This document shows positions 4,503 through 60,694 of a DNA stretch of 64,000 bases, piece by piece (position 1 is the stretch's first letter; every line of letters starts with the position of its first letter). The notes beneath the pieces are model-generated. The model was not told the DNA's origin and made no database searches. It saw only the letters and a program-made list of their open reading frames with translations. The DNA is from Acidobacteriota bacterium (GTDB lineage: Bacteria; Acidobacteriota; Thermoanaerobaculia; Multivoradales; J023): NCBI GenBank assembly GCA_029263395.1, contig JAJCXO010000104.1, positions 1 through 64,000 on the forward strand, given 5' to 3'. The position numbers were made by a program, and so were the translations under genes.

Positions 4503-4506
4503 GCCC

Positions 4507-11071: not shown

Positions 11072-11072
11072 G

Positions 11073-15736: not shown

Positions 15737-15766
15737 AAGTTTAGGTGCCTGGCACGAGTAAACGCC

Positions 15767-43510: not shown

Positions 43511-43540
43511 ACTCAGCTATACATCTATTGGAGGATCTAC

Positions 43541-44331: not shown

Positions 44332-46155
44332 TCAGAGGGTCTTCATGTATTCGACGAGAGCCCATTTTTCGTCGTCAGCGAGGTCGACTCCGTATTCGTG
44401 ACCACTGTTGTTGTTGCCGGCAGTTTCGCTGCGGAACATCCAGGCGCCTTCGCCTTGGCCCTCGACGTCGAGGCCCACTTTCTCGGGATCGAGCTCGCGA
44501 CCAACCGGAAAGGCTACGGGTCGTGCGGACGCCGGTTGCAGCAGGTCCCACAAGGTCGGGACGGAGCCGTTGTGAAGGTAGGGCGGGCTGGCCCAAATAC
44601 CGCTGAGCTGGCGGGTGTGGTAGGCGCGGGTGATGCGCCAGGTGGGATCCGCGCTGCGTTCGATGGGGGCGAGCTCTTCAGCGGTGACGCCATGCGCCTC
44701 GAGACTCTGCTGTGCCACGGTGCCACCGAGCTCAATGAGGAGTTGAGCATAGGATTTGCCGTCTTGTTCGAGCTCGGCAAAGTTGACCGCCCGCAATGGG
44801 TCGGTACCAATCTCGTCGACCGGCGTCAGCGTTTCTTCCCGATGACAGGCCAGGCAATGTTGCGCGTAGAGCTCTTCACCCTGACTAGCCTGCGCTGAGT
44901 CGATCGCGCCGAGGACGTCGGCTGGCCAGGCCGGAGCTTTCAGGCTGTGGGCAGTGCTCTCGAGGGCGATCACGTTGTGCGGCAGCACGGTGGTGTGTTG
45001 AGTCTTGGGGTCGTAGTCGGCGCCGAGGGCAATCGCTTGAGCATAATCCCGCCCCATCACGGCGGATGAGTTGCCATCCCAATGGACCCAATGAAAGCTG
45101 GCATATTCGAATAGGTGAGGGATGCTGACCGGGGCGTTCATCGCGGTCAGATTGTCGTGTTGGACGAGGAGATCCCAAATCGAATCGAAAGAATCAGCCC
45201 GGCCCGGGCCGCCCGGAGTTTCACTTTGGAACGCCTTGGCGAGGGTGACCAGGCGCTCGGCGCGGCGCCGGATGAAAGCCAGGTCGTCGTGTAGCTTGGG
45301 GAGGGCCTCGCGCAGATGCTGCCACGCGGTCTCATCTCTGGACTCGGAACCGCCGGTGGTGACCCCATCGAGTCCGGTCGCCGCCTGCGCCAAGTGACTC
45401 TGTCGGGTCTCCGGGGAGTCGGCGTGATAGGCATCGTGCAGGCTGGATTCGAGATGCGCACGGGCGGCACCCAGGGGGTGATCGTCTGTTGCCGCGGCGG
45501 CCTTGGTGAATAGATCGTGAGCCGCCGGATGCATCTCGAAGACTTCTTGCTCCTGAGCAAGCTGACGCTCCCATTGCATCAAGGTACTCACGAATTGCAA
45601 AGTCCGCCGCGGCGATTTCAAGGTCTCAGCCAGGTCGCCTTCGAGACCGGCGAGGAGAGCCTCGAAGTCGAGCATGTTGGGCGCGCCGTCGATGGTCAAG
45701 GCGGTATCTTGGTAAGTGAACTGCCCGGAATGGCAGGCGGCACAACTGACGCCGACCAACACCGACTGCGTCGGTGCGCCCGCCACGGGTGCAGCAGAAA
45801 AACCGATTGGTAGCCCGTAGGTATTGGACGGACCGGCCACAAATCCAAAACGCGGCAAGATCTCGATAAAGGGCCGGCCGGTGACCGAATCTTCCAAGGC
45901 GTGGAAGAAGCTCAGAGGGATGAAACCGCTACCCTCGTCATGATGATGCCAGAGAGCCTGTTCTTGTTCGCTGAAGCCAACGTCGAGACGCAGGGTTTTT
46001 GTGGCGTTCGACTCGAGGGTCGGCACCAACTTGGCTGGCTGGGTTGCCGTTTCCTGGGTGGTCGTTTGTGAGTCTGGGCTTTCTTGACCGCACCCCGAAA
46101 GAACCGCCACGAGGCTGAGGGTCAGAATCAGTGCCAGAAGGTTGTGTTGTTTCAT
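44332..46155 (-). CDS. Di-haem cytochrome c lipoprotein
   Basis: A 607-residue lipoprotein: signal peptide with lipobox 'LSGC' near residue 20. Haem motifs CAACH and CLACH lie in the first third and toward the C-terminus, followed by 'GIWASPPYLHNGSVPTLWDLL', typical of the cytochrome c peroxidase/MauG-related di-haem family. A helical insert lies between the haems. The start at 46155 opens the lipoprotein signal; a longer frame upstream is not meaningful. It lies 67 bp after a similar cytochrome gene on the same strand. Substrate unknown. Confidence 0.8.
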   Translation of the reverse strand: MKQHNLLALILTLSLVAVLSGCGQESPDSQTTTQETATQPAKLVPTLESNATKTLRLDVGFSEQEQALWHHHDEGSGFIPLSFFHALEDSVTGRPFIEILPRFGFVAGPSNTYGLPIGFSAAPVAGAPTQSVLVGVSCAACHSGQFTYQDTALTIDGAPNMLDFEALLAGLEGDLAETLKSPRRTLQFVSTLMQWERQLAQEQEVFEMHPAAHDLFTKAAAATDDHPLGAARAHLESSLHDAYHADSPETRQSHLAQAATGLDGVTTGGSESRDETAWQHLREALPKLHDDLAFIRRRAERLVTLAKAFQSETPGGPGRADSFDSIWDLLVQHDNLTAMNAPVSIPHLFEYASFHWVHWDGNSSAVMGRDYAQAIALGADYDPKTQHTTVLPHNVIALESTAHSLKAPAWPADVLGAIDSAQASQGEELYAQHCLACHREETLTPVDEIGTDPLRAVNFAELEQDGKSYAQLLIELGGTVAQQSLEAHGVTAEELAPIERSADPTWRITRAYHTRQLSGIWASPPYLHNGSVPTLWDLLQPASARPVAFPVGRELDPEKVGLDVEGQGEGAWMFRSETAGNNNSGHEYGVDLADDEKWALVEYMKTL

Positions 46156-46222
46156 CGGTTTCCCAGTCGTTCTCGTTGGGTGGATTCTTTCGGTCCGGCG
46201 GCTGCTGCACGTTGGCCGAGGT

Positions 46223-47629
46223 TTAGAGCGTCTTGAGAAATTCGAGTAAATCTCGCTTCTCCTCTTCCGACAGGTCGACGCCGTAAGTATGGCCAACATT
46301 TGAATTGCCGCGGATCGACGTATCGTATTCGCTCGTTCCGGGACCTGCGACGGAAGACTGAAAGCCCATCTTGTCAGGGTTGTAGATTTCGCTGCCACGA
46401 TGGAATATCGCCGGTCGCGCCGCCTCCGGCGACAACAGGTCGACCATGCCAGGCACCGAGCCATTGTGTAGATAGGGTGCCCGCATCCAAGCCCCATCGA
46501 GCGGCACGTTGAGGTAACCGTCGGTACGTCGTAGACCAGGGAAGGCGAACGGTGGCGAGTTGATGCTCTTGAGGCGATCGACAAATGCCTCGCTCCACAT
46601 CTCGAGGAACGCCGGATCGGTACCAACCTCGGTCTGGGCTGTGACTTGCCCAACCCGGTCGCCATCGAAAGCGTGGCAGGATGCACAGTGGGTTTCGTAC
46701 GTCACCTGGCCACGGGCAGCAGTCTCAGCGTCGATCGCGAAGGGGAACGTGGCTGACGGCAGGTTGTAGAGGTATGCAGTGACTCGGTCGAAACTCTCTT
46801 CGAGGAAGCCGGAGGGTCCCTGGTTCAGGGGGTACACTGACATCAGATCGTCTTCGCGCAGGCTGTTGCCGCTGCCGTTCCAATGGAGGTATTGGCCTTC
46901 GCGGGCCCCCTGGTCCCAGAGTGGTGGATAGTCGGACGTGCCGACGGTACCATCGTCAGCCAGGCCGAGGACGCTGATCTTGAATAGGTTGAAGGCGTCA
47001 AAGCGACCGTGCCCGGCGGTCGGTCGGGTGTTCATCCAGGCCGCCCCTTGCTGCTGCTGGCGCAACGTTTTGCCCACCGTCGGCAACAGCACATAACGAT
47101 AGACCAAGCGTTCACTCCAGCTGAGGTCAAAACGTGCCTCGATTGCTGGCAGCAGCACGTCCGAGCGGAAGCGAGGATCGTTGGCGGCAGCAAAGACGAA
47201 GGTGTTGAAGGCTTGGAAGTCCAACGCGCCGGCTGGTGCACCGGGCACAATCACCGGTTCAGCGGTTGCCGAGGTGCGGTAGCGACCGGTGTGGCAGAGG
47301 GCACAGTTTGGGCTCAATGCTGGGAAGCCCACCGTCTGTTTGGCAAAACCGATCGGGTAGCCACGCCCTTCGTCGATCATGCCGAAAACTTCCCAGCCAC
47401 CTGACGTGGGTAATAGGTCAGGAAAAACTTCGGGCATTACCGTCCAGAGGTAATACGGGAAGCCTGGTTTAAGACCAAGCGCGCCGTATTTGAAGTGGGT
47501 CTCCGGATCGTCGAAGATTGCTGGCGGTCCCTTGCGCGCCAGGTGGTACCAGAGGCCCGAGCCGATCACGCTAAGTGCTAGCACAAGCCCCACCCCGGTC
47601 GCCGTGAGCACCTTCCGTCGTCGACTCAT
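46223..47629 (-). CDS. Di-haem cytochrome c, membrane-anchored
   Basis: A 468-residue protein. An N-terminal anchor 'VLTATGVGLVLALSVIGSGLWYHL' is followed by haem motifs CALCH and CASCH and 'GAWMRAPYLHNGSVPGMVDLL'. It is a diverged paralogue of the next gene: both end in 'GNxNxGHxYGVDL..EEK..L.E..KTL'. The ATG at 47629 (MSRRRK) fits the basic start of a signal anchor. The pair probably carries electrons or oxidises a substrate in the periplasm, linked by position to the two membrane cyclase-like proteins upstream. Confidence 0.8.
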   Translation of the reverse strand: MSRRRKVLTATGVGLVLALSVIGSGLWYHLARKGPPAIFDDPETHFKYGALGLKPGFPYYLWTVMPEVFPDLLPTSGGWEVFGMIDEGRGYPIGFAKQTVGFPALSPNCALCHTGRYRTSATAEPVIVPGAPAGALDFQAFNTFVFAAANDPRFRSDVLLPAIEARFDLSWSERLVYRYVLLPTVGKTLRQQQQGAAWMNTRPTAGHGRFDAFNLFKISVLGLADDGTVGTSDYPPLWDQGAREGQYLHWNGSGNSLREDDLMSVYPLNQGPSGFLEESFDRVTAYLYNLPSATFPFAIDAETAARGQVTYETHCASCHAFDGDRVGQVTAQTEVGTDPAFLEMWSEAFVDRLKSINSPPFAFPGLRRTDGYLNVPLDGAWMRAPYLHNGSVPGMVDLLSPEAARPAIFHRGSEIYNPDKMGFQSSVAGPGTSEYDTSIRGNSNVGHTYGVDLSEEEKRDLLEFLKTL

Positions 47630-47672
47630 CACAAGGTGCTCCACGGTGTGCCTGTCTTCAAGGCTTCGTTCT

Positions 47673-48332
47673 TCACAGGCGCTTCCAAAGCTGGACGCCA
47701 TCCCGCCGCGCCACGAAACAATAGAGACCAACGTAGACCACATTCAGCAGTATGGTGAATAGGTAGTAGGCGGTGATCCAAGTGGGTGGGACGTCCACTT
47801 GCCCTTGCTGTTGGGCAAATTGGGTAGGCAAGTAGCCGGCAGCATCGCCGATCAAAATGGCCAGCGCGATGTATAGCGACTGCCCTTTGACGCTGTTGCG
47901 ACGCAGCAGCATGGCGATCAACATACCGGAGTAGAACGGGGTGTTGATGGCCGCAAACAGCCCGCCGTAGGTATCTCCGAAGGCAGTCACGAAGGTGTAG
48001 ACCCCGACCAGGGACATTGCCAGACTAGCGGTGAGGAAGGTCAGGAAGTACTGCTTCAGGATCGGCCAATCGAAGTCGTCCCGCCCGAATCGAAAGAGGG
48101 TATAAACCACCCCGATATCGAAGACTAGAAAAAAACCATTGGCCACTCGGTAGGTCATCTCAATCTCGGTCAGAAAGGTGAAGATGAACTCCCAAGAAAC
48201 ATTCAGGCAGAGGGCAATCATCGGAAAGCCGTAGCTCTTGTCTAGGAACCCACGCCGAATCATCAGCACATAGGCGATCACCCAACACAGGGTCAGGATC
48301 AAGCTCGACTGATTGTGAAACTGTTCAACCAT
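47673..48332 (-). CDS. PaxB/Pyr4-like membrane terpene cyclase homologue (2)
   Basis: A 219-residue protein with seven hydrophobic segments. 'AYVLMIRRGFLDKSYGFPMIALCLNVSWEFIFTF', 'DIGVVYTLFRFGRDDF', 'RRNSVKGQSLYIA' and 'VYVGLYCFVARRDG' match in order the pattern I recall for fungal PaxB/Pyr4 transmembrane cyclases. The Glu of SWEF (E48) is in the position of the essential Glu. The later essential Asp appears to be Asn. I start at ATG 48332 because GGAGG lies 5 bases before it. It could also be a transporter-like protein of unknown role. Confidence 0.6.
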   Translation of the reverse strand: MVEQFHNQSSLILTLCWVIAYVLMIRRGFLDKSYGFPMIALCLNVSWEFIFTFLTEIEMTYRVANGFFLVFDIGVVYTLFRFGRDDFDWPILKQYFLTFLTASLAMSLVGVYTFVTAFGDTYGGLFAAINTPFYSGMLIAMLLRRNSVKGQSLYIALAILIGDAAGYLPTQFAQQQGQVDVPPTWITAYYLFTILLNVVYVGLYCFVARRDGVQLWKRL

Positions 48333-48344
48333 AGTTTCCTCCAC

Positions 48345-48436
48345 CCTTGGTTTACCGGATCTGCTCGATCAAAGTCTGCCGTTAGATCACAGTCTGCCGT
48401 TAGATCACAGTCTGCTCGATCAAAGTCTGCGCTCGA
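48345..48436. repeat. Short tandem repeat between the cyclase-like genes
   Basis: AGTCTGC-ended units of 15-18 bp (two CGTTAGATCACAGTCTGC flanked by TCGATCAAAGTCTGC) fill the gap between the paralogous genes. Confidence 0.65.
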
Positions 48437-49102
48437 TTAGAGCCGCCGGAACGGGTCGATGCCGTCCCGGCGAGCCACCTGCAGGAACAGCAGGATGTAC
48501 AAAATGTTCGCGGCCACGATCAGAACATTGACGGTATGCACCCAAGGCACCGAGATGTTCGGCTCGACGGTTTGTTTGGCGATCAGGTTCATCACCCAAC
48601 CGCAAATATCGCCCAATAGCACGAAGAGACCAATGTAGAGCGATTGGCCACGGACGCTGTCACGGCGCAGAATCATTCCGACCATCAGCACACTGAGCAG
48701 CAGAGTGGTGAAGGTGGCGCTGATGCCGCCGTAACTATCGTCAAAGCTGAATGAAAACTGGCGTACCAGGAAAAATCCGCCGATCAACGTCGCAACGGTC
48801 AAAGGCCGGAAGTAACGCTTGGTGAGGCGTGATTCGAAGTCCTCTGGACCGTAGCGTAGGCACGTCCACAACACCCCGAGGTCCACCGCGAGGTAAAGAC
48901 CGTAACCGATGCGGTTGGCCAACTGGGCACCAGAGAACAGCGAGTAGAAGACTTCCCAGGCGATGTTGAGGCACAACGCGACCATCGGCATGCCGTAACT
49001 GCGATCCTTTAACCCGCGCCGGATCATCAGCCCATAGGCGATGAGCCAGAACACCAGCCCACCGAGAGCCCAGAGATTCTGCGCAAGAGGAGAAAAGGTC
49101 AT
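48437..49102 (-). CDS. PaxB/Pyr4-like membrane terpene cyclase homologue (1)
   Basis: A 221-residue paralogue of the next gene, with the same blocks: 'AYGLMIRRGLKDRSYGMPMVALCLNIAWEVFYSLF', 'DLGVLWTCLRYGPEDF', 'RRDSVRGQSLYIGLFVLLGD' and 'LLFLQVARRDGIDPF'. E50 is the conserved Glu; Asn replaces the C-terminal Asp here too. Seven membrane segments. It is the first gene of the minus-strand cluster with the two cytochromes. If a cyclase, it would act on a membrane-bound prenylated substrate. Confidence 0.6.
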   Translation of the reverse strand: MTFSPLAQNLWALGGLVFWLIAYGLMIRRGLKDRSYGMPMVALCLNIAWEVFYSLFSGAQLANRIGYGLYLAVDLGVLWTCLRYGPEDFESRLTKRYFRPLTVATLIGGFFLVRQFSFSFDDSYGGISATFTTLLLSVLMVGMILRRDSVRGQSLYIGLFVLLGDICGWVMNLIAKQTVEPNISVPWVHTVNVLIVAANILYILLFLQVARRDGIDPFRRL

Positions 49103-49539
49103 CGATCTGCCGCCCTTTCCTAGTCTGTTGTCGTGGAGACCACCCAGACTCTCTCGGAGGAGGGCCGCGAAGTCAAGAGGTGCTGGTTGAGAACCGCAGG
49201 GCTAGCAGGTCGAGCTGCCCACAGAGCGAAGAAATTGGGTTCCGTGTCCTGAACTCCGCTCTGTGATGAGTATGCACCTCAAAACCGCCAGCGGAATATA
49301 GAAAAAGACACCTAGATAAATGTTTACAATAGTGGCACTGGCGCACATCTCAGAAACTCTCACAACGCCACAATAGAGCCGAATTACCCACCCAATAAAC
49401 ACCGTCATGCAAAACGACATGCAGCGAATTTCACTACGAAATAAACTAATATTTCCACAGTCTGCAGTAGAAACTATTTTCCGACTTGATACACTGAAAA
49501 ACCTTTCGATCTCGAACGGCAGGTCATTGGCGAAGAGCT
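49103..49539. other. A/T-rich divergent intergenic region
   Basis: About 440 bp, clearly richer in A and T at 49260-49510 than its surroundings. It separates the divergent cyclase/cytochrome and LOV-rhodopsin operons, so promoters for both should be here. I saw no consensus boxes strong enough to call. Confidence 0.5.
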
Positions 49540-51162
49540 GTGACAAAGGCCGAGCCTCGTCTATCAGCACCCAACATCGTGAACACTCATCAACTAATAC
49601 ATCTTCTAGCACCAATTTTCGAAGAGCTAGACGACGGGATCTCAGTTGCAGACGCGCGCCAACCGGACCTGCCGTTGAGTTACGTCAACGCCGCCTTTCT
49701 AAGAATGTCCGGCTACCGTTCGACAGAAGTGCTGGGTCGAAACTGTCGTTTCCTCCAAAGGCCTGAGACCGACTCCGGCTCGGTCGACAAGTTCCGTAGC
49801 GCTCTGTCCCAGAAAACCCCTTGCCAGGTGGTGCTACGAAACTATCGCAAGGACGGCACACCTTTTTGGAACGAGGTCAAGCTGTTCCCACTCCTCGACA
49901 CCTCCGGTTCGGTTGATCTGGTCGTCGGAGTCCAGCGGGACTTGACAGGCCGACCGCGCCACCACAGCGCCAGCGACCCCCTGGATCAGCTAGAAGAGAA
50001 AATGACCCGCGACCAGGCTCGGCTACGGACTATCAAAGAGAACCTCGCACCTATGGAGACAATCCTCGGCGAGGTGCGATTTGGTGTCGTCCTTACCACC
50101 GACGAGAGGGCCATCAGCTTCATCAACCGAACCGCCTGTGAGCTGCTCGGCATCGATCACTCGTTGGCCGTGGGTCGTGACTTTCTGACCCTTTTCGAGG
50201 AGGTCGAAGGGTTACGTCAGATGTTCCGACCAGATCTCGCAAAAAACGAGAACCGGATCGACACGATCCTGCGTCTGCCAGGCGGTCGAGAGCTTTCGGT
50301 CGGCCTTAGTTTCCAGCCGGTCCGGGCTGCCCCCGACCACCCGCCGTACCAACTCATTCTCTTTCGCGAACTCGGCGAGCTCAAGCGAGTGAAGGAGGAG
50401 ATGCGCCAACTCAAACGGCTATCCGCGTTCGGCCAGATGGCAGCCGGCTTCGCCCATCAAGTGCGCAATCCACTCGCCGCGATCCGTTCGATGGCCGATG
50501 GCTTGATTGAGGAGATCGAACCCGGCGATTCGCGACGAGAGTACGCGCAACGTACTGTGGCGCTGGTCGCACGAGTCGAAAAATTGGTGCGCCGATCGTT
50601 GCGATTCTCCCATAGCGAAGGCACCTCACTGCGCCCTGTCGAGCCTGCCACTCTGCTTACAGAGGCCATCACGGTGCTCGAACCGCGGTCGAGCAACACG
50701 GACGCGAAGCCGGTGCTCGAAGCTATCCAGAACCTGCCAGAGGTGATGGTTGATCGCGCTCAGATCGTCGAGATTCTAGTAATCCTGCTGGAGAACGCCA
50801 TCGACGCTGCTCGCGACCCCCAGCGGGTTCGGGTTGCTGGCACCGTCGTGACGGACGAAACTTCGCGCGCTCAGGTCGCCATCGACGTGGTCGACCTCGG
50901 GCCAGGGATGCCCGCTGGCCGCCTGGAGAAGATCTTCGACCCCTTCTTCTCGACCAAACCGCGCGGTACCGGCCTGGGGCTACCGATCGCGCTGCGCTTG
51001 GCCCATGAAAACGGCGCACAGATCCAAGCCAGCTCGTCTCTCGGCGAAGGCAGCACCTTCCGCCTCTTGTTGCCCATTGTTGACGAGGAATTACCTTCGA
51101 GTCGAATCCTGGTCGAGGACGCTCCCAATCTGGGCCGGAGCCGGCCAGCGGGGATCGAATGA
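49540..51162 (+). CDS. LOV-domain histidine kinase
   Basis: A 540-residue cytoplasmic sensor kinase. Residues about 25-135 are a LOV domain with 'GRNCRFLQ' (adduct Cys C69, Q73), N101 and N111 in 'RNYRKDGTPFWNEV' and Q132 in 'GVQRDLT', all the flavin-binding residues. A second PAS (about 172-275), HisKA with phospho-acceptor H306 ('AHQVRNPLAAI'), N box 'LLENAIDAA', 'DLGPGMP' and 'FSTKPRGTGLGL' complete it. It should autophosphorylate in response to blue light. Starts at GTG 49540. Its stop overlaps the response regulator start (ATGA). Confidence 0.93.
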   Translation: MTKAEPRLSAPNIVNTHQLIHLLAPIFEELDDGISVADARQPDLPLSYVNAAFLRMSGYRSTEVLGRNCRFLQRPETDSGSVDKFRSALSQKTPCQVVLRNYRKDGTPFWNEVKLFPLLDTSGSVDLVVGVQRDLTGRPRHHSASDPLDQLEEKMTRDQARLRTIKENLAPMETILGEVRFGVVLTTDERAISFINRTACELLGIDHSLAVGRDFLTLFEEVEGLRQMFRPDLAKNENRIDTILRLPGGRELSVGLSFQPVRAAPDHPPYQLILFRELGELKRVKEEMRQLKRLSAFGQMAAGFAHQVRNPLAAIRSMADGLIEEIEPGDSRREYAQRTVALVARVEKLVRRSLRFSHSEGTSLRPVEPATLLTEAITVLEPRSSNTDAKPVLEAIQNLPEVMVDRAQIVEILVILLENAIDAARDPQRVRVAGTVVTDETSRAQVAIDVVDLGPGMPAGRLEKIFDPFFSTKPRGTGLGLPIALRLAHENGAQIQASSSLGEGSTFRLLLPIVDEELPSSRILVEDAPNLGRSRPAGIE

Positions 51163-52262
51163 ACGTCCGCATTTTCATGGTCGACGATGAGACCGATCTG
51201 GTCTGGACGGTCTCCCAGCACATCCGAAGAGAGCGTGCTGATTGGACCCTCACCGGTTTTTCGAATCCGGTGGAGGCCCTCGAGGCGATCAACAAAAATC
51301 CACCCGACCTCCTCATCACGGACCTCCGCATGCCGGCCCTCGATGGCCTCGAGTTGGCACTGCTGGCACGCCAGCGGGTCCGCGATCTGCGGGTCATTCT
51401 GATCTCAGCCTATGGCTCCTCGGCAGTCATGCAGAATGCCGAACGACTGGGCCGGGTGGTGTTCATCGAGAAGCCGTTCGACTACCGCGAGCTGATTCAG
51501 CGCATCGATCGCTGGCTGGCCGAAGACTCTCGTTTTTCGGGCGAAATCGACTTACCCCTGCTGAGTGACTTGATCCAAATTGTCGCCCTATCCAAAGAGA
51601 CTGGGTCGCTCTCCGTGAGCCACCGTGGTCTACGTGGTCAGGTTTGGTTCACAGAGGGTCGGATCGAACATTGCACAACCCCAGACCTGGTCGGAACCGA
51701 AGCTTTTCGCGAGCTGATGAGCTGGACGGGGGGTGAGTTTCGACTCCAACCGGGCGAAACGGCTCCAACTTGCTCGATCGAAGGGCCAACCGACAAGCTC
51801 CTGCTCGACAGTTTCCGTCGGATCGATGAAGCGGGCGTCAGTGCGGCTGGATATGCGCCACCCGCAGCCGCGGATCCACCGACGATTCTCGGTCGCACCA
51901 AAGTCCTTTGGCAGCAGCGGCAGCAAACACTGAACCTACCGACCACGAGCACCGTGTTGGCAGTCTCGCTAGCCGACGGGAAGTCTTTGGCCCTCCATGG
52001 ACCTCACCAGGATCGAGGATCGGTAGACGGCCAGAAGTCATTGCGCGAACTCGTCGAGATCGCGAGTTCGCTGGACGCTGAAAGCCCGTCGGGAACCATC
52101 GAAGCATTCGAGCCCGGATTCGGCTGGATCGCGGCTTGGCATCGCGACCATGGCCTGGGCGTCGTTTATGCGCGGCCGCTGAGTGGTACCTCCGGCCGGG
52201 TTGGGCTACAACAACAAGGATCCGCGATCATGCAAGCATTGGAGATTTCTAGCGATGCCTAA
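51159..52262 (+). CDS. Response regulator with DUF4388 domain
   Basis: A 367-residue protein. The receiver domain has D9/D10, phospho-acceptor D55 (ITDLRMP), S83 and K105 (IEKPFD). A DUF4388/PATAN domain follows (about 125-215, 'LPLLSDLIQIVALSKETGSLSVSHRGLRGQVWFTEGRIEHC'). The C-terminal 90 residues look like a small alpha/beta domain, perhaps Roadblock-like. No DNA-binding domain is visible, so output is probably by protein contact. Translational coupling makes it the partner of the LOV kinase. Confidence 0.9.
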   Translation: MNVRIFMVDDETDLVWTVSQHIRRERADWTLTGFSNPVEALEAINKNPPDLLITDLRMPALDGLELALLARQRVRDLRVILISAYGSSAVMQNAERLGRVVFIEKPFDYRELIQRIDRWLAEDSRFSGEIDLPLLSDLIQIVALSKETGSLSVSHRGLRGQVWFTEGRIEHCTTPDLVGTEAFRELMSWTGGEFRLQPGETAPTCSIEGPTDKLLLDSFRRIDEAGVSAAGYAPPAAADPPTILGRTKVLWQQRQQTLNLPTTSTVLAVSLADGKSLALHGPHQDRGSVDGQKSLRELVEIASSLDAESPSGTIEAFEPGFGWIAAWHRDHGLGVVYARPLSGTSGRVGLQQQGSAIMQALEISSDA

Positions 52263-52725
52263 GCATGACGAACTTTGCCGGGCTCTCCTGGCAGATTCTA
52301 GCGAAGCGATCGTCTCTGGCCTGCTGGAGATCACGTCGAGACGGGTGTGGGGCCAGGCAGCGAGGCAAAACAGTGCGACGCGCTTCTCAAGACTGGCGAA
52401 GTTGGCCCTCCAACTGTGTCAAGGGCCTAGCGTTGGCAAGCTCTCCGCTGCCCTCCGGTTACAGCTCGGATCGACTTCGCTCTCCCGTCGCTCGGCCCGA
52501 CGCCTGGCGGTGCAGGTTGGGGAGCATCTCCTGTTGATGCGTACTAGCCGCGATGGCCGGATGTTGATTTTCCTGGTGTTGGCACAGGGCAAACCCTCGG
52601 ATGAGATCTGGGCGAGGATGGAAATTACGATCAATCTCATGTCGACAGTCAGCACTACCGACAACGGCCCGACCCCAGGGGCGCCTTCGAACGATCGCGG
52701 GCCGGCGTCAGTCCCAGGCAAGTGA
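52255..52725 (+). CDS. Possible Roadblock/LC7-like protein
   Basis: A 156-residue soluble protein that starts inside the last codons of the response regulator (8-bp overlap). The segment 'VGEHLLLMRTSRDGRMLIFLVLAQGKPSDEIWARMEITINLM' has the strand-strand-helix ending of Roadblock/LC7 domains, which often partner small GTPases or DUF4388 proteins. The N-terminal half is helical and the last 25 residues are disordered. Assignment is by pattern and weak. Confidence 0.5.
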   Translation: MPKHDELCRALLADSSEAIVSGLLEITSRRVWGQAARQNSATRFSRLAKLALQLCQGPSVGKLSAALRLQLGSTSLSRRSARRLAVQVGEHLLLMRTSRDGRMLIFLVLAQGKPSDEIWARMEITINLMSTVSTTDNGPTPGAPSNDRGPASVPGK

Positions 52726-52742
52726 TTCGAAGGAGATTTCCT

Positions 52743-53549
52743 ATGGACTCATACACTCGTTTTCACAAGACCGGCAAAGGGTTAGCCGAGATCGAGGATG
52801 ATGCGCTGAAGCTCAGTACAGAAGAGCGTCAGTTGTTGATTTTGATCGACGGTACACGGACCGTTGGCGACATCCAGTTGCTGCTGCCGGCGGTCAGTGA
52901 CCATGCTTCCCTCTTCCGCCAGCTGCTTCTGGAAAGCCTGATCACGACCGGTGGGCCCGTCACAGCAACCGCCACGCCAGCGTCGCCGGCAGTAACAACC
53001 TGGCCTGAAACACCGCCAGGAACACCACAACATGCGACCGCTCCCGCGTTGAGCGGGGCCGAGGCCGAACTGGAGAGACTGAGGGCAATGGCCCAGGCGG
53101 CTTCGCCACCCACAGCAGCCCAGCCGCCGACTGCCGCCGCGCAGGCGCCTGTCACCCCGGCAGCTGCCACCCCGGTAGCTGCCGCCCCGGCAGCTGTCAC
53201 GTCAGCAGCTGTCACGCCAGCAGCTGTCACGCCAGCAGCCGTCACTCCAGCGGCACTAGCGGCTCCCCTTGCTCCGACGCCCGCAATCACCGACCACGAT
53301 ACCAACGTAATCGACGTTGCTGAGATCGGCCTTCAGATAACGCTTCTCCAAGACAAGGTTCTACGCGAGGCACGGGAAGTCTTCGATCACGAAGACATCG
53401 AGCTGCTGGCTCCCAAAATTCAGGCCTGCGAGACGCTTTCTGAGCTGACCATTCTCTCCACGCGGCTTCGCGACATCGTGGAGTCTTATGCCGACACACA
53501 AACTGCAGACCGTTTCCTGATCCGGATCCGCAAGATCTTAACTGTCTAA
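52743..53549 (+). CDS. Two-domain protein with Ala/Pro linker
   Basis: A 268-residue protein. The N-terminal 70 residues ('RFHKTGKGLAEIEDDALKLSTEERQLLILIDGTRTVGDIQLLLPAVSD') resemble the winged-helix-like segments found with DUF4388 systems. Residues 75-185 are a low-complexity Ala/Pro/Thr linker with repeated AAVTP. The C-terminal 80 residues are helical. AAGGAG lies before the ATG at 52743. It is encoded between the two-component genes and the rhodopsin gene, so it may link signalling to them. No enzymatic motif. Confidence 0.65.
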   Translation: MDSYTRFHKTGKGLAEIEDDALKLSTEERQLLILIDGTRTVGDIQLLLPAVSDHASLFRQLLLESLITTGGPVTATATPASPAVTTWPETPPGTPQHATAPALSGAEAELERLRAMAQAASPPTAAQPPTAAAQAPVTPAAATPVAAAPAAVTSAAVTPAAVTPAAVTPAALAAPLAPTPAITDHDTNVIDVAEIGLQITLLQDKVLREAREVFDHEDIELLAPKIQACETLSELTILSTRLRDIVESYADTQTADRFLIRIRKILTV

Positions 53550-53595
53550 ATGTGTTGAGGTCGATCGGACGCGACCTTACAAAGGAGGCAACGCC

Positions 53596-54345
53596 TTGAC
53601 AACTCTGGCCATCATCACCCAATACACCTACTGGGTTGCGTTTTTATGCCTGGCTTCCGGCACCATCTACTTCCTCGCTGAACGAAACTCGCTGATCGAG
53701 GAGTACCGCGCGACCGCCACCACCGCCGCAGTCGTCTGCTTTATTGCGGCGGCCAACTACTTCGTCATGCAAGGATCGGTCGGACGTGACGGCTCTATCG
53801 AGTCGATCCTCAATTTCCCCACCGAGTTCCGCTACCTCGACTGGCTGATTACGACACCCCTGATCTTGACCAAGTTTCCATCGTTGCTCGGCTCGGGGGA
53901 AGATCGACGACCGCTGGTGGTCACGCTGATTTTTGCCGACGTGGTGATGATCGCCACCGGCTTTGCCGGTGAGCTGGCGATCAATCAGGCCGGCGGCAAT
54001 TTCTCGTCCCTCGGCCTCGGAATGTTCCTCGCCTCGGGCGCAGCCTTCTGCTTCATCATCTACATCCTGTTCACGATGGTCGTTGCTGCATCCAAGGACA
54101 AACTCAAACCTATCCGCGACGGTTTGAAACGGCTCAGACTGTTCATCGCCATTGGCTGGATGATCTATCCGATCGGCTATTTGATGGCGATGTTCGGCAT
54201 CGGACCCGAAGGCCTAGTGTTACGCGAGCTGATCTACAACATTGCCGATGTGGTCAACAAAGTCGGATTTGGCTTGGTGGCGGTGTTCGCCGTCCGGCAG
54301 GTGTCTCGCGACCAAACAATTCGTAAGGCGATCGCGAGCCTGTAG
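53596..54345 (+). CDS. Microbial rhodopsin, DTK-motif proton pump type
   Basis: A 249-residue, seven-helix retinal protein. Helix C has R79, D82 (acceptor), T86 and K93 (donor position), in 'FRYLDWLITTPLILTK'. Helix G has D218 and the Schiff-base K222 ('IADVVNKVGFGL'). Lys at the donor position is as in Exiguobacterium ESR. The helix B His of proteorhodopsins is N54 here and the carotenoid-fenestration position appears to be F144. Likely a light-driven outward proton pump. It starts at TTG after AAAGGAGG. Retinal genes follow directly. Confidence 0.93.
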   Translation: MTTLAIITQYTYWVAFLCLASGTIYFLAERNSLIEEYRATATTAAVVCFIAAANYFVMQGSVGRDGSIESILNFPTEFRYLDWLITTPLILTKFPSLLGSGEDRRPLVVTLIFADVVMIATGFAGELAINQAGGNFSSLGLGMFLASGAAFCFIIYILFTMVVAASKDKLKPIRDGLKRLRLFIAIGWMIYPIGYLMAMFGIGPEGLVLRELIYNIADVVNKVGFGLVAVFAVRQVSRDQTIRKAIASL

Positions 54346-54399
54346 GCGGTTTCCGGCGGCTGCCAGCCGCCGGGCGCTCATTGTCGACGTTGAGCCACT

Positions 54400-55905
54400 A
54401 TGAAACGACCGATCATCAAGCCGCGCTCCCCTGCTCTCGTCGTGGGGGCAGGATTCGGTGGTATTGCCACCGCATTGCGCCTGCGGGCCCGCGGCTATCG
54501 GGTGACGCTGGTCGACCGGCTGCCGGAACTCGGTGGCCGGGCACGGGTGTTTCGTCGAGACGGTTTCACTTTCGACGCTGGGCCGACGGTAATTACCGCC
54601 CCCTTCCTGTTCGCTGAGCTGTTCGAGTTGTTCGGCGAGCGGCTCGAAGACCACGTCAACCTGTTGCCGGTTGAGCCGTGGTATCGGATGCTGTTCGACG
54701 ACGGGAGCCGTTTCGACTACGGCGGAACAATGGCCGACACCGAGCACGAGATCGAAAGCTTGTCACCGTCCGATGTCGACGGCTATCGGAATCTCCTCGC
54801 ACACTCCAAGAAGTTGTTCGACAAGGGCTTTACTGAGCTGGCCGATCAGCCGTTCGATTCGCTCTCGGCCATGCTGCGCTCGGTGCCGGACTTGGTGCGC
54901 TTACGCGCTGATCGAACAGTCTGGGACGTGGTGAGTCGTCATCTTCGCGACCCACGACTGCGCCAGGCCTTCAGCCTCCATCCGCTGTTGGTCGGCGGCA
55001 ATCCCTTCACGACGACCAGTATCTACTGTCTGATTCACTTCTTGGAACGGAAATGGGGCGTCGTCTTTCCCCAGGGCGGTACCGGGGCATTGGTCGGCGC
55101 TCTGGGCGACCTCATGCAACGTGTTGGCATCGAATTCCGTCTTGGTGAGACTGTAGAACGTGTCGATATTGTCGATGGGGCGGCGGTCGGCATCACCCTC
55201 GATACCGGCGAGGCGCTCGACGGCTCGCCCGTCGTGATGGGCACAGATCCGTGTTTCGTCTACAAACACTTGATCGCGCCTGACCATCGGCGCCGATGGA
55301 CCGACGCACGGATCGGGAAGCTGCGCTCCTCGATGGGGCTTTTTGTGCTGTATTTCGGTACCACCAGAATCTACCCCGAGGTCGCCCACCACAGCATTCT
55401 CTTCGGCCCGCGCTTTCGGGGACTGCTCGAGGACATCTTCGAGAAGGGTCAGTTGGCCGACGACATGAGCCTCTATTTACATCGGCCCACAGCTACTGAT
55501 CCCAGCCTCGCTCCGGCCGGGCATGACGGCTTCTATGTGCTGTCCCCGGTACCCAACCTCACCGCGGCGATCGACTGGACCATCGAAGGCCCGCGGTACG
55601 CAGAGAAAATTCTCGACCGTCTCGAGAGCACCGTTCTGCCGCGCCTGCGCAATCACTTGGTGTCGTGCTTCCACGTCACGCCGCAGTACTTCCGCACAGA
55701 ACTCTTGAGCCATCGCGGAGCGGGTTTCTCTGTCCAACCACTTTTGACCCAATCAGCCTGGTTCCGCTTCCACAACGCTTCGGAAGATGTCCGCGATCTC
55801 TACTTCGTGGGTGCGGGTACCCACCCGGGGGCCGGCGTCCCGGGCGTCCTCAGCTCAGCCAAAGTGGTCGAAAATCTGTTGTTGGAACGGGAGAGGGCAG
55901 CATGA
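54400..55905 (+). CDS. crtI: Phytoene desaturase
   Basis: A 501-residue CrtI-type flavoprotein. The N-terminal dinucleotide fold 'ALVVGAGFGGIATALRLRARGYRVTLVD' is followed by 'GGRARVFRRDGFTFDAGPTVIT', and the C-terminal signature 'YFVGAGTHPGAGVPGVLSSAKVVENLL' is complete. It converts phytoene to lycopene. It is 54 bp after the rhodopsin gene and overlaps crtB by 4 bp, in the retinal-supply part of the operon. Confidence 0.94.
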   Translation: MKRPIIKPRSPALVVGAGFGGIATALRLRARGYRVTLVDRLPELGGRARVFRRDGFTFDAGPTVITAPFLFAELFELFGERLEDHVNLLPVEPWYRMLFDDGSRFDYGGTMADTEHEIESLSPSDVDGYRNLLAHSKKLFDKGFTELADQPFDSLSAMLRSVPDLVRLRADRTVWDVVSRHLRDPRLRQAFSLHPLLVGGNPFTTTSIYCLIHFLERKWGVVFPQGGTGALVGALGDLMQRVGIEFRLGETVERVDIVDGAAVGITLDTGEALDGSPVVMGTDPCFVYKHLIAPDHRRRWTDARIGKLRSSMGLFVLYFGTTRIYPEVAHHSILFGPRFRGLLEDIFEKGQLADDMSLYLHRPTATDPSLAPAGHDGFYVLSPVPNLTAAIDWTIEGPRYAEKILDRLESTVLPRLRNHLVSCFHVTPQYFRTELLSHRGAGFSVQPLLTQSAWFRFHNASEDVRDLYFVGAGTHPGAGVPGVLSSAKVVENLLLERERAA

Positions 55906-56894
55906 CGTCTCGGCTTGGTCACACTGTTCGGGCCGGCACCGGAAGACCTCTATCGATGCCTTCCGCCTCGCCTAACACCTCCACAACGATGGCTGGTCGC
56001 GGCTCTACGTTCGCTTGGGCTAGTCGCCTGCTACCTCAATCACTAGGGCCGGACGTTGCCCAGCTTTATAGCTTCTGTCGCCGCGTGGACGACATTGCCG
56101 ACCGTTCAGACGACTCTCAAGATGCGCGGCGTCGCCTCGCTGGCTTGCAGAACGCGCTGCTAGCAGGTGACGTGAGCGATCCGCTGGCGGCCAGAATGCT
56201 CGATCTGGCGCAACGATACGCCTTCGAGATCACGCCGGCCATCGCCTTGATCGAAGGGGCCAGCTCCGACCTCGGACCCGTTCGCATCGCGTCCAGTGAG
56301 GATCTTCTGCGGTATGCCTATGCGGTAGCAGGAACGGTTGGGGAGATGATGTGCCCCATCCTCGGCTGCCGCAAAGCGATGGCGTTGCCCTTTGCAATCG
56401 ATCTCGGCGTCGGGATGCAGCTCACCAACATCGCCCGCGACGTCTTGGAAGATGCCCAGAACAACCGCCTTTATCTGCCCGCCGACCGACTCGATCCAAC
56501 GGTGACACCACACAGCCTAGCGGCAGGCGAGTCGGCGGCGCGGGCCAGTACCTGGAACGAGATTCTGTGGCTCCTCACCTTGGCCGAGCGCTACTACCGA
56601 AACGCGGATCTCGGCATCGGCTTGCTGCCGCTTCGAGTAAGGCCCGGCATCTTGGTAGCAAGCCGCGTCTACGAAGCGATCGGCACGGAAATTCGACGCG
56701 CCGGCGAAACGCTCTACTGGCAGCGACGAGCCAAGGTCAGCCGCCGTGCCTTCTTGTGGCAGACGCTGCGGGCGCTTTCGCGTCTGCCCCGGCCGATTGA
56801 GAAGGCCAATCGGTCCGGTAGGATGACACCCGCGGCGCACTTACGCCGCGTACGGCTATCGACTCCTCTCGAGGAGCACCGTGAACAAGGGTGA
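55902..56894 (+). CDS. crtB: Phytoene synthase
   Basis: A 330-residue squalene/phytoene synthase. First Asp-rich motif 'RRVDDIADRSDD' (D63-D67) and second 'GVGMQLTNIARDVLEDAQNNRLYLP' are intact. It joins two geranylgeranyl diphosphates to phytoene. ATG 55902 overlaps the crtI stop as ATGA, which decides the start against a longer upstream frame. The first 30 residues are a non-conserved Ser/Thr-rich extension. Confidence 0.93.
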   Translation: MTSRLGHTVRAGTGRPLSMPSASPNTSTTMAGRGSTFAWASRLLPQSLGPDVAQLYSFCRRVDDIADRSDDSQDARRRLAGLQNALLAGDVSDPLAARMLDLAQRYAFEITPAIALIEGASSDLGPVRIASSEDLLRYAYAVAGTVGEMMCPILGCRKAMALPFAIDLGVGMQLTNIARDVLEDAQNNRLYLPADRLDPTVTPHSLAAGESAARASTWNEILWLLTLAERYYRNADLGIGLLPLRVRPGILVASRVYEAIGTEIRRAGETLYWQRRAKVSRRAFLWQTLRALSRLPRPIEKANRSGRMTPAAHLRRVRLSTPLEEHREQG

Positions 56895-58047
56895 ACGGGC
56901 AGACATCGCGATCATCGGTGGTGGTTTGGCTGGCCTCAGCCTAGCCTGGAGACTCGCCGATCCGACTTTCGGGCAGCATAGAGTCATTGTCCTCGAACCT
57001 CGCGAGCAGTACGTTCCCGATAGAACCTGGAGCTACTGGAAGCTTCATGATCACCCGTTTCAGCCTTGGGTCAGCCACTCCTGGGAGCGCTGGCAGGTTG
57101 CCACCAACGCTGGGACCGCCGTCGGAAATTCTACCGAGCACCCTTACCAACGGCTACCGGCCGCCAGTCTCTATTCTGCTGCGCTCACTCGAATCGAGAA
57201 CGCCGCCCATGTTCATCTTCGCCTCGGCTGCTCGGTGGATGGCCTGGTCGATCGCGGCCCAGGGGATGTCCAGGTCACCGGTCCATGGGGCGAGCTGAGC
57301 GCTGCTCTGGCCTTTGACAGCCGGCCTCCGAAGCTTCGGTCCGGTGCCCTTGTACAGCACTTCTGCGGTTGGGAGATCGAAACCCCCGAACCCCGCTTCC
57401 AGACCGACACTGTAACCCTGATGGACTTTCAGGTCGCACAGCAGGGAGCGGTGCACTTTGTTTATGTGCTGCCTCTTTCCCCGTGTTCAGCGCTGATCGA
57501 GGACACATGGATCTCGCGGTCACCTCAGCCACTGAACACTTATGCCCAACATCTGCGGCATTATCTGACCCAGCACCTGAACGTCACAGACTATCGGCTG
57601 CTTCGGATGGAGGAGGGGCGTATCCCTATGGACCCAACCTTGCGTCGACGTCGCCAGCGGTCGCGAATCGTGCAACTCGGTACTCGTGGCGGGATGGTAC
57701 GGGCCGCCAGTGGCTATGCCTTTCTCCAGATCCAACGGGACAGCGAGGACCTGGCTCGCCAGTTGACGGCAGGAGCTCGCGTCTGGCGTCGCGGACTTCG
57801 TCCACAACGGTCTCCAGGGGTGTTGACGCGCCGAATGGATTCGGTCTTCCTTGGCTACCTCGATCGTCATCCCGAAAGGGCACCAGAATTGTTTCGTGCC
57901 CTATTTACAGGCTGCCCGCCGGAAGACTTGGTGCGTTTCCTGGGCGGTGTTGGCAGCTTTTCAGACCACCTTGCTGTCATTGCGGCATTACCCAAACTGC
58001 CACTCTTGGCGCAGCTCTTTCGCGGCAAGAAGCGACATGAAGCTTGA
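56881..58047 (+). CDS. crtY: Lycopene beta-cyclase
   Basis: A 388-residue CrtY/CrtL-type flavoprotein. 'ADIAIIGGGLAGLSLAWRL' binds the dinucleotide; 'PDRTWSYWKLHDHP' and 'LVQHFCGWEIE' are lycopene cyclase blocks; 'RSRIVQLGTRGGMVRAASGYAF' and the C-terminal 'LFRALFTGCPPEDLVRFLGG' complete the family pattern. It makes beta-carotene, the Blh substrate. GTG start at 56881 overlaps crtB by 14 bp. Confidence 0.9.
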   Translation: MNKGERADIAIIGGGLAGLSLAWRLADPTFGQHRVIVLEPREQYVPDRTWSYWKLHDHPFQPWVSHSWERWQVATNAGTAVGNSTEHPYQRLPAASLYSAALTRIENAAHVHLRLGCSVDGLVDRGPGDVQVTGPWGELSAALAFDSRPPKLRSGALVQHFCGWEIETPEPRFQTDTVTLMDFQVAQQGAVHFVYVLPLSPCSALIEDTWISRSPQPLNTYAQHLRHYLTQHLNVTDYRLLRMEEGRIPMDPTLRRRRQRSRIVQLGTRGGMVRAASGYAFLQIQRDSEDLARQLTAGARVWRRGLRPQRSPGVLTRRMDSVFLGYLDRHPERAPELFRALFTGCPPEDLVRFLGGVGSFSDHLAVIAALPKLPLLAQLFRGKKRHEA

Positions 58048-58080
58048 GCTCCAAACACCGAGCCAGACGGGGCGTCCCAC

Positions 58081-59136
58081 TTGAGGATCACGCCTACGAG
58101 ACCGGGGCCCGTGCCTGGGGTTATTCTCGTCGTCCTACCACTGGTCGCCGCAGCGCCCTGGTTGCAGGACCTTCCGCCCGGCGCCCAGGCCATCGTCCTG
58201 CTCGCCGGAGTGTTGATTCTCGGCGTACCCCACGGTGCACTTGACCATCTGGTGGCACGGTCACTGCTCGCAACTCGTATCGGCCGGTGGTGGCCGCTCT
58301 ATTTCGGCCTGGCCTATCTGATGCTCGCTGGAGCGGTGTTGTGGGGCTGGCGAATCGCCGCGCCGTTCACCCTCGCCGGCTTTCTGGCGTTGTCGATTCT
58401 GCACTTCGGTTCGGATCGTCGAGCAGGGGCATGCGGCCGCTGGCTCAAGGTCGCAGCCCACGGCGGCGCTCCGGTGGTATTACCTTGCTTCTTCTACCCG
58501 GAACCGACGGCAATCATCTTCCGTCTGCTGGCCCCTACTGCGCAACTTGATGCCACAGCCGTGCTTGCGATCGCACGACCGGCCGCATTCCTGTGGAGTT
58601 TCGCAGCGCTGTATGTGATCGTCCGATCGCTGGTTGAACCGTCGCCAAGCGGCGCAAGATCAACCGCCGTTTGGCACGCGATCGAACTACCAGCTCTTGC
58701 TTGGCTGTTCGCCTTCTTGCCGCCGCTGCTCGGATTTGGCGCCTACTTCTGCCTGATCCACTCCGTTCAGCACCTCACAGAAATCGGTCGCCATTTGGGC
58801 CCGGCGCAATCCCTCAATCGGTTGCGCTGGCTGGTTCGTCAGGCACTGCCACTGACAGCCACGACAATCGTTCTCGGCCTACTCGTCGCTCCGTGGGCCG
58901 CCCCCAGCCTCACCCTGGACGAAACGTTCTTGCGACTTACTTTTTGGGGCCTTGCAGCCCTCACCGTTCCCCACATGCTGCTCCTCTTCTTCTGGAATCG
59001 ATATCGGATCCGAAATATCGAGGAGCCACAACAACACCATGGAGATGGAGCTCATGAGAATCCAGGTCACCGGAATCGCTTTGACCGCCGTACTCGCGCT
59101 GACCGGCGTCAGCACCGCCTCCGAGTTGGTTTGTAA
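58081..59136 (+). CDS. blh: Beta-carotene 15,15'-dioxygenase (Brp/Blh family)
   Basis: A membrane enzyme that cleaves beta-carotene to two retinals for the rhodopsin. Iron-ligand histidines are visible in 'GVPHGALDHL' (H51, H56), 'SILHFGSD' (H108), 'CLIHSVQHLTE' and 'TVPHMLLLFF', among about eight hydrophobic helices. The start is TTG 58081, or GTG 58111 in the same frame. The last 35 codons overlap the next gene by 83 bp and are basic and His-rich, unlike the family. They may reflect a lost stop. Confidence 0.9.
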   Translation: MRITPTRPGPVPGVILVVLPLVAAAPWLQDLPPGAQAIVLLAGVLILGVPHGALDHLVARSLLATRIGRWWPLYFGLAYLMLAGAVLWGWRIAAPFTLAGFLALSILHFGSDRRAGACGRWLKVAAHGGAPVVLPCFFYPEPTAIIFRLLAPTAQLDATAVLAIARPAAFLWSFAALYVIVRSLVEPSPSGARSTAVWHAIELPALAWLFAFLPPLLGFGAYFCLIHSVQHLTEIGRHLGPAQSLNRLRWLVRQALPLTATTIVLGLLVAPWAAPSLTLDETFLRLTFWGLAALTVPHMLLLFFWNRYRIRNIEEPQQHHGDGAHENPGHRNRFDRRTRADRRQHRLRVGL

Positions 59137-59641
59137 CAACGGCGCCACAAAATCCCTTGGTACAGACGGCGTGTGGCGGATCTTCAAGCCGATCGCTGTG
59201 CAAGAGGATCTGCAGGTTGCTCGGCCTCGTCACTATCACAAGCCGTGGAAAAAATTCTCTTTCCGAGTGCCTGCAGAAACACCGATGGTTGAGGGGTTCG
59301 GGCCACCCACTGGCGGTGCCAAGGACCATTCCACATACTTCGAGGACCAAGACACTTTACCGCTAGATGCCGCAGAGACACGCGCCTGCGAGTTATTCGC
59401 GGAGGCGACGTTCTCGGTCTATTCGCGAGAAGCAGTTGATCGTGAGTTCGCGGCCAAGATAGAAGTTCAACAAGGTATGGACGACATGCGAGCGACCCTC
59501 GAGGCGATCACCGGCAAACTCGAGAAAGTCACGGACGAGTTGGCGCGCTCGCAGCGCACCACCGTTCAGCTCAACGGGCGCATCGAATTACTCGAGCAAA
59601 AACTCAAGGCAGCAAGCGGAGTGGCTGGAGGGAAGAAATGA
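59054..59641 (+). CDS. Exported coiled-coil protein of the rhodopsin operon
   Basis: A 195-residue protein. Signal peptide 'VTGIALTAVLALTGVSTASE', a middle part with 'RPRHYHKPWKKFSFRVPAETPMVEGFGPP', and a C-terminal coiled coil (about 140-190, 'MDDMRATLEAITGKLEKVTDELARSQ'). GGAG precedes ATG 59054. It begins inside the blh frame, so the two are coupled. Function unknown. Its constant location suggests an envelope role linked to pigment or rhodopsin. Confidence 0.7.
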   Translation: MRIQVTGIALTAVLALTGVSTASELVCNNGATKSLGTDGVWRIFKPIAVQEDLQVARPRHYHKPWKKFSFRVPAETPMVEGFGPPTGGAKDHSTYFEDQDTLPLDAAETRACELFAEATFSVYSREAVDREFAAKIEVQQGMDDMRATLEAITGKLEKVTDELARSQRTTVQLNGRIELLEQKLKAASGVAGGKK

Positions 59642-59695
59642 GCTCGCGGGCTTGCCTTTGACTGGATTCTCAATGGCTCCAGAATAGGCCATCCG

Positions 59696-60694
59696 ATGTT
59701 GAATTTTATCCATGTCAATGCCTCCGACTTAACACGGGTCGAAGTACTCATGCATACCCTTGCACGAGGCGACTCAACCGATGGGTTAGGAAAAATCGCC
59801 AGCGAGCACATAGGCAACGGCGGCAAGCGGATTCGGGCCCAGCTTGCTCTGACTGCCGCCAAAGCGGTCGATGCGGAGATCGATGCTGCGCCCTGGGCGA
59901 CCGCCTGCGAATTACTTCACAATGCCAGCTTGATTCATGACGACATTCAAGATGGAGACCAGTTTCGCAGACAGAAGAAATCAATCTGGGCAGAATACGG
60001 ATTTGCACAGGCGATCAATGCGGGTGATCTCTTGTTGATGCTGCCATTGACTGCCGTCGATCGACTAACGTGTCCTGATCACATGAAGTGGAACTTGACG
60101 CGGGCGCTGATTCGGCGAGCACAGGCGGCTGCAAGAGGCCAAGCCCTCGAGCTCAGCATCCGACAAAACATCAACTCTACTTGGGCTGAGTGGAGTCATG
60201 CCTATCAGGGCAAGACTGGCGAGCTCCTGGCGTTGCCGCTCGAGGGAGCCGCATTATTAGGCGGCCTCCCGACCGAGGCGGCAAAGATATTGGGTAACAT
60301 CTTTCGTAAGTTCGGTATCGTTTATCAGATATGGAATGACATTGGGCAAACATTGAGCTTAACAAAGCAAACTACTCCGAAAGATTTGTCCTCGTTAGGC
60401 ATTCTACTGATCACGCACCTTCAGCTCCAACCCGAGGACTCATCACTGGCGGCGCTGACACTTGCATCAAAAGAAGGATGCCCAAGAGCTGCCTCTGAAC
60501 TTTTGGATCGAATTCACCGAGGCAGTGGGATTCACGAACTGCTCGAACGAGGCGAAGATATTCTTGAAACTATTCGGAGAGACCCGGCCCTAGCAGCTTA
60601 TCCTGGCTTGCAGGAGCTTGCCGAGGATCTTGCGACGCTCAGCCCCCTGCACGGGCAAATACCCATGCAGTCTGCCATCGCAAGTTATTCGTGA
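59696..60694 (+). CDS. Polyprenyl synthetase-like protein with degenerate second motif
   Basis: A 332-residue trans-isoprenyl diphosphate synthase fold. 'GGKRIRAQL' and the first Asp-rich motif 'DDIQD' (82-86, with RR at 91-92) are intact, as is 'QGKTGELLALPLEGAALLGG'. The second Asp-rich motif, normally DDxxD, is N214-D-I-G-Q218. In this operon a crtE-type geranylgeranyl diphosphate synthase is expected, but lost carboxylates would weaken Mg binding. Base composition is more A/T-rich than crtI-blh, suggesting a separate origin. It ends the operon. Confidence 0.8.
   Translation: MLNFIHVNASDLTRVEVLMHTLARGDSTDGLGKIASEHIGNGGKRIRAQLALTAAKAVDAEIDAAPWATACELLHNASLIHDDIQDGDQFRRQKKSIWAEYGFAQAINAGDLLLMLPLTAVDRLTCPDHMKWNLTRALIRRAQAAARGQALELSIRQNINSTWAEWSHAYQGKTGELLALPLEGAALLGGLPTEAAKILGNIFRKFGIVYQIWNDIGQTLSLTKQTTPKDLSSLGILLITHLQLQPEDSSLAALTLASKEGCPRAASELLDRIHRGSGIHELLERGEDILETIRRDPALAAYPGLQELAEDLATLSPLHGQIPMQSAIASYS

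Follow-up and report, generated by a model that had tools for sequence, protein, structure and literature searches.

In the genome of an Acidobacteriota bacterium of the class Thermoanaerobaculia, a LOV histidine kinase and a DUF4388 response regulator are encoded in one block with a rhodopsin and the genes for retinal formation. The DNA analysed was a stretch of 64,000 nucleotides, hereafter called the window, on contig 104 of the 10.7 Mb genome (G000), in which a search for 16S rRNA detected none. The block probably constitutes a blue-light-regulated operon for rhodopsin phototrophy, and, as far as gene order and promoter elements indicate, the conserved system is best interpreted as transcriptional control of the rhodopsin genes. 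An association of light signalling with phototrophy had been suggested in an initial annotation of this DNA; synteny in three genomes of two families and a strict co-occurrence of the genes now support a link between rhodopsin phototrophy and the sensing of blue light.

Gene order and conservation of the block

All genes of the block are located on the + strand in the order LOV histidine kinase, DUF4388 regulator, Roadblock protein, linker protein, rhodopsin, crtI, crtB, crtY, blh and exported protein; in the window, a polyprenyl synthetase gene follows on the same strand 3' of the exported-protein gene. These genes had been listed in the initial annotation and were recovered at or near the positions assigned to them, with the expected domains. 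Five of the measured junctions overlap by 4-14 bases: kinase/regulator (-4), regulator/Roadblock (-8), Roadblock/linker (-4, or +17), crtI/crtB (-4, the crtB ATG overlapping the crtI stop) and crtB/crtY (-14). The other measured gaps comprise 33-54 bases, for linker/rhodopsin (+46), rhodopsin/crtI (+54), crtY/blh (+33) and exported/synthetase (+54), and the blh/exported junction overlaps as well if the exported protein starts at 59054. Terminator-like sites were found at the level of shuffled sequence (11 vs. 10.3), which gives no sign of a strong terminator separating the rhodopsin from the signalling genes. Because of the overlaps, the short gaps and the chance level of terminator-like sites, the block fits one transcription unit, and the spacing of the genes makes one transcript plausible for the window. 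Two promoter candidates were rejected: a sigma-70-like match at 59658, 5' of the synthetase gene, was within chance expectation, and a sigma-54-like site at 58253 (score 14) falls into the coding region of blh, the relatives having no equally strong site at this position.

Among 148 genomes of the class, a close rhodopsin (79 % identical) was encoded in two further genomes, G020 and G012, which belong to another family of the same order; two of the three genomes with the block share one genus. The initial annotation had proposed a synteny search for LOV kinase, DUF4388 regulator, rhodopsin and blh. Both relatives keep these genes together, in the order LOV kinase, NtrC-type gene, REC-DUF4388 regulator, Roadblock, linker, rhodopsin, crtI, crtB, crtY, blh and exported protein, the Roadblock gene of G012 being recognised from its position and alignment. 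The operon as first listed holds as a conserved block up to the exported protein, but the synthetase is not part of it, as no homologue was present in the DNA retrieved around the clusters of the two relatives, and the Roadblock gene likely starts at 52255 instead of 52183. The flanking genes of the window had no homologues in the fetched flanks of either relative. With unrelated flanks and a kinase only 51-53 % identical to both homologues, compared to 79 % for the rhodopsin, the gene order has outlasted much divergence.

The co-occurrence is strict. The linker was detected in 3 of the 148 class genomes, exactly those with this rhodopsin. Full-length matches to the exported protein were confined to the same number of genomes, all with the block, the remaining matches being short coiled-coil stretches. 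An orthologue of the LOV sensor was present in the same three of 71 genomes of the order (47 % identity, E 1e-68; matches in other genomes reached E 4e-37 at best). No further close relative was found among 396 genomes sampled from the phylum. Viral contigs searched with the rhodopsin alignment yielded no relative, GTDB contigs, among which kin of the window seem to be missing, no close homologue, and plasmids only distant rhodopsins below 31 % identity. Within the DNA examined around 44 rhodopsin loci from other lineages, of which some are short, a homologue of the kinase or the regulator was found in none; several of these loci carry crt or blh genes. The closest one, a Verrucomicrobiales rhodopsin with 42 % identity and likewise a DTK motif, had no kinase or regulator homologue in the 10 kb upstream. 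A distant DTK rhodopsin (33 %) from another family of the phylum is encoded beside a lycopene cyclase (L101, G429:C12:326000-343000, about 8056-8820), without a LOV kinase homologue.

Photoreceptor kinase, rhodopsin and partner proteins

The kinase (P0001, 49540..51162, + strand; Pfam and NCBIfam matches) comprises a LOV domain, a second PAS domain, HisKA with His306 and HATPase_c, the last two above the Pfam cut-offs. The adduct cysteine of the LOV domain is Cys69 within GRNCRFLQ. It is invariant in the three genomes, as are the flavin-contact residues N101, N111 and Q132, the phospho-acceptor H306 and N419 of the N-box. The protein aligns with LOV structures and with the LOV-FixL hybrid YF1 (4gcz), in which a LOV domain with adduct cysteine also precedes a HisKA kinase; unlike YF1, it has a second PAS domain, and the partners of its gene are of the NtrC or REC-DUF4388 type and not FixJ. 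The AtoS and ZraS models scored well on the kinase region, yet below the cut-off. With the LOV and the catalytic residues present, the kinase is intact by sequence, and a blue-light-dependent activity is predicted. A second LOV-sensor-like protein is encoded in the same genome (L110, G000:C160:12499-13263), with 34 % identity over the LOV-PAS region.

The rhodopsin (P0006, 53596..54345, + strand; Pfam Bac_rhodopsin) is 55 % identical to its closest solved relative, the Exiguobacterium sibiricum rhodopsin ESR (4hyj). The DTK motif D82, T86 and K93 and the retinal lysine K222 align to D85, T89, K96 and K225 of ESR, so that the Asp acceptor and the Lys donor are shared. The lysine K96 is described as the proton donor of ESR, and a Lys-donor mechanism has been presented (PMC8387761). 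In the tree, the grouping with ESR reached a support of 94/91, just below the threshold of 95. A difference is Asn54 at the position of ESR His57 in all three genomes; this histidine stands beside the acceptor Asp in ESR and was not used here to define the ESR-type group. A further difference is the clustering with retinal genes and a LOV kinase. By its donor motif the rhodopsin is, as judged from the sequence, an ESR-type (DTK) proton pump, an assignment that does not claim an identical mechanism.

The retinal cassette is complete from phytoene synthesis to retinal, with all genes on the + strand: the phytoene desaturase crtI (P0007, 54400..55905; TIGR02734, 571.9 bits against a cut-off of 238.1), the phytoene synthase crtB (P0008, 55902..56894; PF00494, SQS_PSY, 204 bits), the lycopene cyclase crtY (P0009, 56881..58047; PF05834, Lycopene_cycl, 183 bits) and the retinal-making beta-carotene 15,15'-dioxygenase blh/brp (P0010, 58081..59136; PF15461 and TIGR03753 above the cut-offs). 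The polyprenyl (GGPP-type) synthetase (P0012, 59696..60694, + strand; PF00348) occurs in the window only, outside the conserved block.

The response regulator (P0002, 51159..52262, + strand; Pfam Response_reg and DUF4388) is approximately 48 % identical to its homologues in both relatives, and its receiver residues D9, D10, D55 and K105 are invariant. After residue 242, a model of low confidence (pLDDT 58.5) predicts the order helix, two strands, helix, three strands, helix. This order is Roadblock-like, and from it alone a Roadblock-like C-terminal domain may be assigned with low confidence; Foldseek searches with the model returned mostly receiver domains. The next gene (52255..52725, + strand), which the initial annotation had considered a possible Roadblock gene, encodes a protein with the Roadblock/LC7 fold according to its predicted structure, and homologues occupy the same position in both relatives. 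Its AlphaFold model (pLDDT 71) had the Roadblock/LC7 structure 3kye (E 5e-6) and MglC/MglB as top Foldseek matches, and VIA-align superposed it on 3leq with a Z score of 13.4 and an rmsd of 2.3 over 102 residues. A sequence match was obtained neither in Pfam nor with the Roadblock profile against solved structures. The linker protein (52722..53549, + strand, with an ATG at 52743 as possible real start) belongs to no Pfam family; its alignment has a conserved N-terminal part of about 75 residues, a Pro/Ala-rich middle and a conserved C-terminal part of about 65 residues. The exported protein (59054..59641, + strand), encoded by the last conserved gene of the block, carries a probable signal peptide and a C-terminal coiled coil. 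Profiles of the linker and the exported protein against solved structures gave no meaningful match.

Control of the rhodopsin genes

Both relatives carry an NtrC-type activator gene (REC-Sigma54_activat-HTH_8, by Pfam for G020) between the kinase and the regulator genes, the two activators being 69 % identical. The DUF4388 regulator gene follows after 93-148 bases, and 5' of it aligned -24/-12 sigma-54-like sites were found, TGGCACCTACCTTGCT and TGGCCTGCGCCTTGCT. The chance of such scores in first-order simulated sequence is 0.00015 for the former and 0.004 for the latter. A dyad of the form GGTCGA-AAA-TCGACC or GGTCAA-AAA-TTGACC is located 69 and 84 bases upstream, as GGTCGAAAATCGACC in one relative and GGTCAAAAATTGACC in the other; compensating changes on both arms keep the symmetry. 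In G012 the dyad overlaps the 3' end of the activator gene. With up to three mismatches allowed, G012 has the dyad at no other position, and G020 has it at two further positions, both on a single other contig. L100 (G020:C32:1-6000) contains a pair of identical near-copies, AGCGGTCAAAAATCGACCGAG, at 9-29 and 160-180, about 1 kb 5' of another NtrC-type gene; this gene may encode a paralogue of the activator, with a site resembling the dyad.

In the initial annotation, a strong terminator together with a separate promoter dividing the signalling genes from the rhodopsin was regarded as an argument against the link. No terminator of this kind is apparent above the shuffled level. In the relatives, a separate promoter does divide the sensor pair from the genes from regulator to rhodopsin, but it strengthens the link, because an activator such as the one in the sensor pair would drive promoters of this type. 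In the relatives, blue light would cause a flavin-cysteine adduct in the LOV domain and shift the balance of kinase and phosphatase activity, by which the kinase would set the phosphorylation of the NtrC-type activator. Bound to the dyad, the activator would start sigma-54-dependent transcription from the DUF4388 regulator gene through rhodopsin, crtI, crtB, crtY and blh to the exported-protein gene. The rhodopsin itself would provide energy as a pump and not act as a sensor.

In the window, the activator gene is absent, and kinase and regulator genes overlap instead. A -24/-12 site above chance was found neither at this junction nor in the intergenic region 5' of the kinase (49103..49539, + strand), which also has no dyad. 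The dyad is absent from the whole window, and its near-matches in the own genome equal a reversed-pattern control. The activator was either lost in the window lineage or gained in the other lineage; the three genomes do not decide between the two. As the activator is missing, the REC-DUF4388 regulator is the only linked partner and would most likely receive the signal of the kinase in the window. Roadblock and linker adjoin the regulator, which suggests an output by protein contact there. The initial annotation had proposed such an output in view of the lack of a DNA-binding domain in the regulator. The proposal stands for the window alone; it does not extend to the relatives with their NtrC-type activator and sigma-54-like promoter.

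Several points weigh against light-dependent transcription of the rhodopsin operon. The sigma-54 sites are only about 15 bases 5' of the ATG, which leaves a very short leader, and the -24 element of one relative's site deviates from the consensus. The block was found in three genomes only, and one of these, the window genome, has no activator, promoter or dyad in the block, so the transcriptional part cannot hold unchanged there. Gene content, gene order and promoter elements are seen in the DNA; from them we infer the light response, phosphotransfer, DNA binding and transcription. The sign of the light effect, light-on or light-off, is not readable from sequence: in YF1, blue light converts the kinase into a phosphatase (PMC6798134).

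Control by direct contact is an unlikely alternative for the system as a whole: the LOV kinase would act via the REC-DUF4388 regulator, Roadblock and linker on the rhodopsin or the pigment enzymes in the membrane and tune pumping or retinal supply. The block in the window encodes no DNA-binding regulator, the genes of regulator, Roadblock and linker are placed directly 5' of the rhodopsin gene in all three genomes, and the linker was found only with this rhodopsin. The initial annotation had also named the rhodopsin or pigment enzymes as possible targets; such contact is unsupported, and the activator and promoter of the relatives account for the linkage without it. Roadblock proteins are known chiefly as partners of Ras-like GTPases, but none was among the block genes or their Pfam matches, the rest of the genome not having been searched. 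A complex of these proteins that gates the pump or the pigment supply post-translationally under blue light is doubtful in the same degree; if true, the window lineage would present a transcriptional light circuit rewired to protein contact after the loss of NtrC.

With little probability, the role of the missing activator has passed to an NtrC-type protein encoded elsewhere in the same genome, and the kinase still controls the operon transcriptionally in trans. The genome contains 150 scored matches to the NtrC query. The best of them, however, groups with a different NtrC of G020 (support 100/99, in a tree of the top matches only), and no orthologue of the cluster NtrC was among the top matches. 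The missing dyad and the lack of a sigma-54 site above chance 5' of the kinase argue against control in trans as well.

That the rhodopsin is itself a sensor, in a joint photosensory pathway with the kinase, is very improbable. Two photoreceptor types are indeed encoded side by side, but the rhodopsin has the full proton-pump motif, Lys donor included, and is closely related to ESR, which is a pump; a gene for a transducer is absent, and the LOV kinase has a complete sensor domain of its own. A chance neighbourhood of unrelated signalling genes can practically be dismissed: most genes are from common families, the linker and the exported protein alone being specific to the block, but the order is kept in two families with unrelated flanks and the co-occurrence is strict. 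Transcriptional control by blue light remains the preferred reading for the conserved system.

Neighbouring genes, known systems and significance

Divergent from the rhodopsin block, two adjoining genes on the - strand of the window (47673-49102) match Pyr4-like transmembrane terpene cyclases; they are not conserved beside the block in the relatives. Beside them, two genes with RoxA-like cytochrome c domains of the rubber-oxygenase type (44332-47743, - strand) are located. The window also encodes a lytic polysaccharide monooxygenase (LPMO_10; 43472-44320, + strand). The strongest sigma-54-like site of the window, TGGCACGCTGATTGCT (23566-23581, + strand), is at the start of the ORF at 23577, which has no Pfam match. 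A defence-like island (3624-16444, - strand) contains an SNF2 helicase, for which HmaA was the best PADLOC match (E 2e-94) and helicases of BREX and DISARM matched as well. The island further includes a DNA methylase similar to HmaB, an ORF similar to Type I methyltransferases and a weak PglZ-like match.

Each component has known counterparts, namely the cassette of rhodopsin and retinal genes, LOV kinases, NtrC regulation and Roadblock signalling; a conserved block that links them was not found in the literature searched. Proteorhodopsin cassettes at alphaproteobacterial/SAR11 loci (L027, L033) have the same order of rhodopsin, crtI, crtB, crtY and blh, but no kinase or regulator homologue in the loci examined, and their rhodopsins carry a DTE motif and are about 30 % identical. 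NtrC/AtoC/ZraR sigma-54 systems resemble the block in the AtoS/ZraS likeness of the kinase region, below the cut-off, and in the REC-AAA-HTH_8 activator of the relatives; in contrast, the sensor here is a soluble LOV domain, and the window has no activator. In Roadblock signalling of Myxococcus (MglB/MglC/RomR) and of actinobacterial conservons, a Roadblock protein also occurs beside two-component proteins, whereas the present block has no Ras-like GTPase and encodes a REC-DUF4388 regulator. For Vibrio campbellii, light up-regulation of the proteorhodopsin gene has been reported, comparable to the light control proposed here, but under RpoS control and in a genome reported to be without LOV and BLUF, whereas a photoreceptor kinase is linked here (PMC3380642). 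In the searched literature, mostly open-access and covered by titles, abstracts and some passages, no report of a rhodopsin operon with a linked LOV kinase was found.

The control of bacterial rhodopsin phototrophy is poorly known; according to the study on V. campbellii, no regulator was known by then from other organisms with proteorhodopsin (PMC3380642). The block offers a setting in which to view DUF4388 and Roadblock signalling proteins, together with the uncharacterised families of the linker and the exported protein, both of which were found only with this rhodopsin. The window genome presents a natural experiment, the same operon minus the transcription activator. As the rhodopsin operon is physically linked to a dedicated photoreceptor kinase, to an activator with its putative binding site and to a promoter, a complete circuit from light to phototrophy becomes testable.

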